DNA of 33,567 nt from Syntrophomonadaceae bacterium (lineage in GTDB: Bacteria; Bacillota; Syntrophomonadia; Syntrophomonadales; Syntrophomonadaceae): assembly GCA_012729835.1 (NCBI GenBank), contig JAAYCK010000013.1, positions 1-33,567 of the forward strand, given 5' to 3'. Positions 20,548 to 22,527 of this stretch are shown piece after piece (the stretch's first letter is position 1; every line of letters begins with the position of its first letter). The notes beneath the pieces were generated by a model that did not search any database, was not told where the DNA came from, and was given only the letters and a program-made list of their open reading frames with translations. The position numbers and the translations under genes were made by a program.

Positions 20548-21309
20548 TTATTCTAAATATATACCGATTGGGCAGTGATCCGACCCTTTTATTTCATCAA
20601 GTATAACACAATCAAGTATTCCGTTCGCCAAGTTTTCTGTGACATAAAAGTAATCGATTCGCCACCCTACATTCTTCTCCCTGGCCCGCATCCTATAGCT
20701 CCACCAGGAGTACTGGACCTTGTCGGGGTACATATAACGAAAAGCATCTAGATATCCATGTCCCAGGAACCTATCCAGGATTTCTCTTTCTGCCGGCAGG
20801 AATCCTGATCTCTTGGCATTCGCTCGAGGGTTTTTTAGGTCCATCTCTCGGTGTGCGGTATTAAAGTCCCCGCAGATTATAAGCCGTGGTCGCGTTTTTT
20901 TCAGCTCTTCACAATAATCAATCAACGCTTCATAAAATTCAAACTTATATTGAAGGCGTTCCTCGTCCATTTGGCCGTTGGGGAAATATACGTTGAGCAA
21001 GGTAAACCCTTCATGCTCGGTTATCAGCAAGCGTCCCTCACAATCGAAACGTTTAATGCCTATACGGTCGGTCACGCTATAAACTGTATCCTTAACAAAG
21101 GTTGCTACTCCACTGTAGCCCTTGCGCATTCCCGAATTCCAATAGGTTGTATACCCAGTTGGAGCAGTGAGTGCTGAAGAGAGCTGGCCAGGGTTCGCCT
21201 TGATCTCCTGCAGACACAGGATATCAGGCTGCTCGGCATGAAGCCAATCCAAGAAACCTTTGCCTTCAATAGAACGTATCCCATTGACATTCCAGGAGAT
21301 GATCTTCAG
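20548..21309 (-). CDS. xth: Exodeoxyribonuclease III, apparently with a CTG start
   Basis: 253-aa Mg-dependent AP endonuclease/3'-5' exonuclease for base-excision repair. Family motifs are SWNVNGIR with N7, CLQEIK with the catalytic Glu35, LLNVYFPNG, CGDFNTAH and the C-terminal SDHCPIGI with Asp-His. These N-terminal motifs can only be included if translation starts at CTG 21309, which has AGGGAGGGG six bases upstream. No ATG, GTG or TTG lies between it and the in-frame stop six codons earlier. The first ordinary start (TTG 21252) would remove N7 and ten or more core residues. Length with CTG matches ExoA of Bacillus. The gene is transcribed alone. Confidence 0.92.
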   Translation of the reverse strand: MKIISWNVNGIRSIEGKGFLDWLHAEQPDILCLQEIKANPGQLSSALTAPTGYTTYWNSGMRKGYSGVATFVKDTVYSVTDRIGIKRFDCEGRLLITEHEGFTLLNVYFPNGQMDEERLQYKFEFYEALIDYCEELKKTRPRLIICGDFNTAHREMDLKNPRANAKRSGFLPAEREILDRFLGHGYLDAFRYMYPDKVQYSWWSYRMRAREKNVGWRIDYFYVTENLANGILDCVILDEIKGSDHCPIGIYLE

Positions 21310-21693
21310 TTTTTTCCCCTCCCTTTATGGTATTAACAATAAACTAACACAGAACATGTAAATCGTCATTAAAGACATGTTAAAAAAGCAAAAGCCGGAG
21401 TCATCCGTCTTTTGCTTGTCAAAGAAGGAGCAGACCGAGCAAAAATGACGAAGGTAAGCTACGAAAACAAGTCTTACATTTGAGGCTAGAATGATAAGCC
21501 ACCCCAATGTTCTGGTTTGAAGATGTCTACGGTGATCCCGTTAGCAGAACCTCAAACTGAGGCACAAGCAAGCCCCGCGATTGAGGCGTACTTAGCGTAC
21601 GTCGATTGAGCGGAGCTTGAGAAGTAACGATGAGATTCGTCTTTTTTGACGGTCTGAGCCGGAATAATCCGGACTTAAAGCGTTTAATCGCTC
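21310..21693 (-). ncRNA. Structured non-coding element with terminator, downstream of mrp
   Basis: No gene is visible. On the minus strand a long-range helix pairs CAGACCG and GACGAA (21656-21650 and 21641-21636) with CGGTCTG and TTCGTC (21437-21431 and 21452-21447), with AAAAA/TTTTT pairs between. Inside are CCTCA/TGAGG (21550-21554 and 21558-21562), GTAC-containing palindromes near 21586-21602 and GTTCTG/CAGAAC. Outside are CCGGA/TCCGG (21659-21672) and a strong terminator (21382-21417). It may be a small RNA, a long structured 3' UTR of mrp or a small mobile repeat. The strand is inferred from the terminator. Confidence 0.5.
21382..21417 (-). terminator. Intrinsic terminator at the end of the structured element
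   Basis: Stem AAGCAAAAG/CTTTTGCTT (21386-21394 and 21409-21417) with inner CGGA/TCCG, loop of four and one mismatch. On the minus strand it is followed by six T. Confidence 0.85.
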
Positions 21694-22527
21694 TTAGTCT
21701 AACTTCTTTTCGAGTTTACTTATGATTTCCTTCATCTCTACAGCATCGTACTCTTCTATTCTTCCTGAGTCGGTAAGAGCATTGAGGTGAGTATCCCAAC
21801 CCATGTTGCCCAGGAAATCTATACCAGTCTCAACAGCTACCTTTTCACCCTGCGGTGGTCCGAAGATCTCCAGTTTCTCTTGGCAATGTGAACAAACTGC
21901 GTAGCTCATATTCTCTATTAAGCCTAGGATAGGTATGTTCATCTTTTGTGTCATCTTGATAGTCTTCTTGACTACCAGGAAAGACAGGTCCTGGGGTGAG
22001 GATACGATCACTATGCCGGTTACCGGGAGCGTTTGCATAACGGTCAGCGGAACATCACCAGTACCTGGCGGCAAATCAACGATCATATAATCCAGGTCTC
22101 GCCAATCCACTTCCTCCCAGAACTGTTTTACTGCCCCTGCCAGCATAGGACCTCTCCATATAACCGGATCGTCCTCGTTGGGTAGGAAAAAATTTATGGA
22201 CATGATCTTAATCCCCAACTTGGATGTTGGCGGAACCATACCAAAATCAGTGGCCTGAATCTTGGGCTTACTTATTCCAAAAGCCTTGGGCTGACTGGGT
22301 CCGGTAATATCGGCGTCCAGAATACCGACCTTTTTGCCTTGCTTGGCAAGAGTAGCAGCCAGAAGCCCGGTTACTGATGATTTACCCACGCCTCCTTTGC
22401 CGCTCATTACTACGATAACATTTCGGATGTCATTAAAAGCTCCCAATAATGCTTTGCTATCATCACATTGGTCGGGAGTGGAACCACAACTGCCCTGCGA
22501 TGGGCATCCGTTGCAATTATCTGCCAT
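21694..22527 (-). CDS. apbC: Mrp/NBP35-family ATP-binding iron-sulfur carrier
   Basis: 277-aa P-loop ATPase of the Mrp/ApbC group, thought to carry or insert iron-sulfur clusters into apoproteins. A cysteine-rich N-terminus (C5, C8, C14, C21) precedes the deviant Walker A MSGKGGVGKSS (41-51). DADITGPS, IVDLPPGTGD and the family's C-terminal C-x2-C (CSHCQEK) follow. The start at 22527 follows AAGGAG. The gene's 3' side holds the structured element at 21310-21693. It would serve the many Fe-S proteins of an anaerobe, such as IorA and RlmD here, but that link is only functional inference. Confidence 0.93.
   Translation of the reverse strand: MADNCNGCPSQGSCGSTPDQCDDSKALLGAFNDIRNVIVVMSGKGGVGKSSVTGLLAATLAKQGKKVGILDADITGPSQPKAFGISKPKIQATDFGMVPPTSKLGIKIMSINFFLPNEDDPVIWRGPMLAGAVKQFWEEVDWRDLDYMIVDLPPGTGDVPLTVMQTLPVTGIVIVSSPQDLSFLVVKKTIKMTQKMNIPILGLIENMSYAVCSHCQEKLEIFGPPQGEKVAVETGIDFLGNMGWDTHLNALTDSGRIEEYDAVEMKEIISKLEKKLD

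Follow-up and report, generated by a model that had tools for sequence, protein, structure and literature searches.

A dispersed non-coding repeat of Syntrophomonas-like bacteria flanked by duplicated intrinsic-terminator hairpins

Bacterial class C group II introns are self-splicing ribozymes with a reverse transcriptase (RT) which insert beside intrinsic terminator hairpins. These introns are not known to duplicate the hairpin, and Y1 transposases are not known to make target duplications. Long target duplications, of 16-28 bp, are a feature of the IS1202 group, which also has multiple end motifs and a DDE transposase (PMC10132070). Among short intergenic repeats, SPRITE resembles a rho-independent terminator (PMC10969869, PMC3049150). 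A search of the open-access literature returned no account of the repeat family described here, or of bacterial elements that duplicate whole terminator hairpins.

The locus lies within a 33,567-nucleotide stretch of a Syntrophomonadaceae genome (contig JAAYCK010000013.1), referred to as the window. The element of about 280 bases in the gap between mrp and xth is not a single-copy RNA gene: it represents a non-coding repeat with dispersed copies, in a diverged and interrupted form. The family to which it belongs is previously uncatalogued and found in Syntrophomonas-like bacteria. The coordinates are collected in Table 1.

Both strands of region 21380-21680 are strongly structured, with folding z-scores of -5.5 and -5.6 and none of 100 shuffles as good. 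The long-range helix, minus-strand terminator and CCGGA/TCCGG hairpin (21659-21672) of the original prediction are all real, the helix being recovered in the minus-strand MFE as well as in the comparative structure. The plus-strand MFE favours a partly different pairing because of a 103-base insert. In the related copy L002, the counterparts of 21414-21455 and 21559-21657 are adjacent, and both window parts are ~93-95% identical to it (~39 of 42 positions for 21414-21455). The window copy is therefore an uninterrupted repeat (21414-21455 plus 21559-21657) split by 21456-21558. A sequence comparison of this insert with all the sequences examined gave no match to a source. The insert also lowers the covariance model (CM) score of the window copy, which is 68.7 bits across 21534-21657. 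The GAUUGA segments of the core hairpin form tandem G-A mismatches flanking U-U. One terminator hairpin, since duplicated, is probably the ancestor of the hairpins at the two sides of the window copy; the terminator hairpin at 21385..21418 holds the left copy of the duplicated core. By analogy with the intact repeats at other copies, 21394..21408 may be the left flanking repeat; at this copy the match is ~12 of 15 positions, with a longer stem at the left side. The neighbouring xth gene has a probable CTG start codon at 21309 (minus strand), upstream of the listed ORF and behind a GGAGGGG ribosome-binding site (21300-21320).

Table 1. Features of the interrupted repeat copy and its flanking genes in the window
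Feature	Position	Strand	Basis
Long-range helix	21431-21455 with 21633-21657		Minus-strand MFE and comparative structure from uninterrupted copies
Intrinsic terminator hairpin, then T run: AAGCAAAAGACGGATGACTCCGGCTTTTGCTTTTTT	21385..21418	minus	Sequence and predicted fold
Putative left flanking repeat, decayed: GCCGGAGTCATCCGT	21394..21408	+	Resembles 21658-21673
Left end, degenerate remnant of 28-nt terminal hairpin (consensus CAGNTTGTCGACAAAGTCGGCAAGNTGC)	21413..21430	+	Comparison with L002
Terminal stem, 5' arm (CAGACCGAGCAAAAATGACGAAGGT)	21431..21455	+	Comparative structure
103-bp extra segment	21456..21558	+	Missing from uninterrupted L002 and all other copies
Right part: inner stem, GAUUGA/GAUUGA internal loop, GCGUAC...GUACGU hairpin, terminal-stem 3' arm	21559..21657	+	nhmmer and CM
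Core hairpin, two symmetrical GAUUGA segments, GUAC-closed apical loop	21569..21618	+	Comparative structure
Terminal stem 3' arm and right end (...GACGGTCTGA)	21633..21657	+	Comparative structure
Right flanking hairpin GCCGGAATAATCCGGA, directly beyond right end	21658..21673		Sequence; same position as the right repeats of other copies
mrp, Mrp/NBP35-type P-loop ATPase, flanking gene	21694..22527	minus	ORF; neighbour conserved in relatives
xth, exodeoxyribonuclease III-like, flanking gene	20548..21309	minus	ORF and sequence

The uninterrupted repeat is ~150 bp long, contains no ORF and consists of a 28-nt hairpin and, after it, a long hairpin of 123 nt. BLAST of the window region against its own genome gave 10 matches, the outcome expected of a mobile repeat; these were right-hand parts of ~80-100 bp or shorter, plus separate matches to 21414-21455. 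A covariance model was built from an alignment of 22 copies, with a consensus of 41 pairs, 22 of them with double-sided changes. At E <= 1e-4 it matched 31 of 54 Syntrophomonadaceae genomes, the richest with at least 52 copies. Copy counts per genome are lower bounds, as scoring covered 65 candidates in each genome out of hundreds. The distribution is patchy within genera: at least 52, 47, 25, 2 and 1 copies per genome in genus g22, and 16, 12, 11, 11, 5, 0 and 0 (lower bounds) in genus g16. One of five genomes of a sister family carries the repeat, in 18 copies, and a CM search of four genomes of a third family found none. Among the matches listed, the named hosts were mostly Syntrophomonas and Syntrophomonadaceae MAGs. 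Viral contigs (searched by exact pattern) and phage and plasmid records gave no match.

Three other families of the phylum have weak relatives of the repeat. In a phylum-wide sample, CM matches were found in 7 of 150 genomes, six of which lie outside the class and have 1-4 weaker matches each (42-69 bits). Most of these out-of-class relatives retain the inner architecture, with a GCGUAC-type apical stem and an AAGGC/CAACGC internal loop. Terminator duplications were looked for at the out-of-class relatives and none was found; targeting of terminators may therefore not hold for every repeat with this structure. Distant relatives at L281:1001-1271, from another family of the phylum, stand in tandem with an identical spacer of ~25 bp. 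As in the original prediction, no known RNA class was recognised: Rfam gave no family for the window region at E <= 1, 6S RNA included, and nothing relevant for the long variants described below.

Insertion was observed directly in two clean pairs of empty and occupied alleles, in which AAAAGCCCCGGCTGCGGCCGGGGCTTTTATTAC (G050 versus G022; L178/L173) and ATCCCCATGCTCGGCATGGGGATT (G022 versus G051; L172/L148) were duplicated. Both empty alleles have a single intrinsic-terminator hairpin and no element, while the occupied alleles have two hairpins, one per side. A strong direct repeat (score >= 30) was common to both flanks of 44% of 131 copies, compared with 0.3% in shuffled pairings, for which the left and right flanks were taken from different copies. 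This flanking repeat is the terminator hairpin of the locus itself and differs at every locus. It is 17-33 bp long (median 24), and its centre is offset from the hairpin dyad by a mean of 0.35 nt (SD 1.7), with 30 of 36 cases within 2 nt. A strong hairpin is found directly right of the element end in 69%, against 6-9% farther out. Read outwards to the left, the 123-nt hairpin is followed by the 28-nt hairpin (CAGNTTGTCGACAAAGTCGGCAAGNTGC) and then by the left flanking hairpin; on the other side, the right flanking hairpin directly adjoins the right end (...GGYCTGA). As repeat length correlates weakly with stem span (rho 0.30, p 0.08), an approximately fixed stagger symmetrical on the palindrome accounts for the lengths no less well than cutting at the base of the stem. 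The strong flanking repeat is missing at more than half of the copies, which could be a result of decay.

The small palindrome-ended mobile repeat suggested in the original prediction is thus borne out by copy number, empty sites and flanking duplications. Insertion sites common to different species (L160/L181, L187/L196) indicate that the element has been moving for some time. The mrp-xth gap itself is empty in G021 (L042) and is occupied in G050 (L180) by a copy in the opposite orientation relative to the genes. The window and L180 insertions were therefore independent, and the same terminator may have been hit twice. Element and terminator hairpin alternate (T-E-T-E-T) in tandem arrays at L182:2001-2487, L165:2001-2298, L163:1828-2123 and L022:1476-1754, which probably arose through recombination between the duplicated hairpins.

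Orientation is random, at 41:41 relative to co-directional gene pairs, and 22 copies lie between convergent genes vs 6 between divergent genes. These counts fit insertion at the 3' ends of genes regardless of transcription direction and are evidence against a role as a cis-acting UTR. The proposal of a regulatory 3' UTR of mrp can be set aside on the same orientation count, on the other gene contexts and on the structured strand at the window, which is antisense to both mrp and xth. One long variant, L243:412-585 (G022:C77), adjoins the gene for a large SRP RNA (Rfam RF01854, 114 bits), which suggests that the terminator of this non-coding RNA gene served as the insertion site.

The fold is maintained on one strand. 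Covariation was assessed on 50 copies outside the model training set, in an alignment made by sequence only. This alignment refolds into the same structure, with 42 pairs, and compensatory changes were present at 31 of the 42. In the held-out copies 96.2% of cells are paired; none of 500 shuffles attained any of five measures, and slid control structures drop to ~40% of cells paired. Over 142 distinct copies, the ratio of G·U to A·C pairs was 592:86, or 507:82 without the training sequences. Mutation of double-stranded DNA would be expected to give the two about equally, so one strand, the plus strand of the window, has been kept foldable. The pattern of substitutions across copies indicates selection for folding of this strand, either as RNA or as single-stranded DNA.

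The ends are related but imperfect inverted repeats, CAGNTTGTCGACAAAG at the left and, read inwards, TCAGRCCGATGACAAAAG at the right. A second motif like the left end, CAGRCCGATGACA, is located 28 bp inside the left end. Longer variants have the same ends with ~200-385 bp between the end motifs, and contain extra hairpin arms and no coding sequence. As the GAUUGA core is missing in several of these (L230, L239, L242, L243), the mobile unit appears to be defined by its ends rather than by the core. Some arms recur inside long variants at unrelated loci (L229-L246), for example GTACCTTCATTTCATTGCGGTAC and CCTTACAGGACCACAATTT, as if swapped or nested. The 103-bp insert of the window copy has a comparable internal position but is unlike the recurring arms seen. 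At L212:2129 and L219:1068, a solo left 28-nt hairpin directly follows a terminator and the rest of the element is missing. In L033 and L150, another short repeat (CATGGATGG...GCAGCGRTGCC...GGCAARGAGC) is inserted within the internal loop, on its 3' side.

The window element is likely to be a copy of a non-autonomous, MITE-like mobile element which depends on a transposase and targets terminator palindromes. An enzyme acting in trans would recognise the element ends, and insertion would take place at the palindrome of an intrinsic terminator through cuts ~24 bp apart, placed symmetrically about the dyad. Gap filling would then leave a whole terminator hairpin on each side. Both flanking genes would retain a terminator, which would render the insertion nearly harmless. 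The enzyme is presumably a transposase that cuts with a long stagger, and mobility or persistence would require the folded single strand (RNA or ssDNA). A search for an autonomous relative at solo-left-end loci in two copy-rich genomes found no pair of ends enclosing a gene within 4.5 kb, and an end-pattern search for a long autonomous version in two genomes found solely longer non-coding variants, up to ~385 bp. Candidates rejected as the partner are an IS1202 transposase (no match in copy-rich genomes, different ends) and the RT and Y1 transposase; the genes for all three do not follow copy number in their presence.

A bolder form of this proposal, to which a minor probability is given, is that the folded single strand itself acts as the substrate or guide for movement. 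The element would target cruciform or hairpin DNA at terminators and duplicate the complete hairpin, with an enzyme that is not of a known bacterial transposase type. If true, this would amount to a mode of transposition that targets hairpins, uses an RNA or ssDNA template and has interchangeable structural arms.

It is unlikely that the repeat is a MITE of a long-TSD DDE transposase akin to the IS1202 group, with the enzyme lost or too diverged for detection in copy-rich genomes. The published duplications of 16-28 bp and extra end motifs of that group are comparable to the 17-33 bp and doubled left-end motif seen here (PMC10132070), and one IS1202-type copy in the window's own genome abuts a palindrome, ACCTCGCCATGGCGAGGT (L197:1265-1300; the other side runs off the contig). 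However, the terminal repeats of that copy are unlike the ends of the repeat, NF033594 had no matches in G022, G050, G051, G024, G010 or G044, and no specific target has been reported for the long-TSD group (PMC10132070).

It is equally unlikely that the repeat is a small RNA or regulatory element that has its own terminators and has multiplied because its function is useful to the host. The strong covariation, conserved GAUUGA/GAUUGA internal loop and strand selection are what such an RNA would exhibit, and the same inner architecture is retained in distant relatives from other families. Against this stand the many close relatives with no copies, the unrelated neighbour genes, random orientation and insertional empty sites, together with internal arms, and even a core, that are dispensable in some copies. 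For the new small RNA suggested in the original prediction, strand-specific covariation shows that one strand is under selection to fold, but no fixed gene context was seen. A function of this kind and mobility are compatible and not exclusive.

An RNA-mediated, SINE-like bacterial retroelement, with reverse transcription of the folded plus-strand RNA, integration at terminator palindromes and target duplications of variable length, is very improbable. It would accommodate the RNA-like covariation specific to one strand, the 17-33 bp range of duplications and the variable internal arms between constant ends, but no RT was found in G051 (25 copies), G010 (23), G000 or G006, while G046 and G021, both element-free, have 10-11 RTs. 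In addition, neither a 3' tail nor a 5' truncation pattern was seen, and the symmetry of the duplications about the palindrome suggests recognition by a symmetrical DNA-binding enzyme. Least probable is a REP/BIME-like origin, in which a Y1 (HUH) transposase spreads palindromic repeats via single-stranded DNA: the high-copy, intergenic, palindromic and in places tandem arrangement and the selection of one strand to fold, like the single-strand substrates of Y1 enzymes, would suit it, but the clear target duplications conflict with the Y1 mechanism, the unit is 150 bp vs ~20-40, and a search for Y1 genes found none in copy-bearing G006, G056, G058 and G065 but many in copy-free G059 and G046.

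The transposase-dependent, MITE-like reading offers a clear, sequence-readable case of an intrinsic terminator hairpin being both the target and the target duplication of a mobile element. Retention of a terminator by both neighbouring genes would constitute a safe-harbour strategy, and a testable question follows as to the enzyme that cuts a palindrome at points ~24 bp apart, centred on its dyad. For RNA discovery based on covariation, it is relevant that a structure with strong, RNA-like covariation can be part of a mobile repeat and not of a host RNA gene.

Several described systems share part of this behaviour. Class C group II introns likewise insert by terminator hairpins, but the repeat has no group II domains (no Rfam match). 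REP/BIME elements with TnpA_REP (RAYT) are also high-copy extragenic palindromes with tandem arrays and putative single-strand folding; the present repeat differs in its target duplications, longer unit and lack of tracking with Y1 genes. ERIC and the pneumococcal BOX, RUP and SPRITE elements are imperfect intergenic palindromes of a similar ~100-150 bp (PMC10969869, PMC3049150), although unrelated in sequence and hosts. SPRITE is itself terminator-like, whereas the repeat described here inserts at host terminators and duplicates them. The IS1202 group, with its unusually long target duplications and multiple end motifs, is the best analogue for duplication length, but it encodes a DDE transposase, has no reported target site, has other end sequences and was not matched in copy-rich genomes. 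Bacterial MITEs are similarly short, non-coding, multicopy and mostly intergenic, with inverted-repeat ends, target duplications and tens of copies per genome (PMC10969869). In terms of the MITE criteria, the repeat has short dispersed non-coding copies, imperfect terminal inverted repeats and a target duplication demonstrated with empty sites. It differs in that no parent IS was found and in what is new relative to known MITE-like repeats: strand-specific RNA-like covariation, interchangeable internal arms and, in place of a short duplication of fixed length, a dyad-centred duplication of 17-33 bp comprising the entire terminator hairpin.
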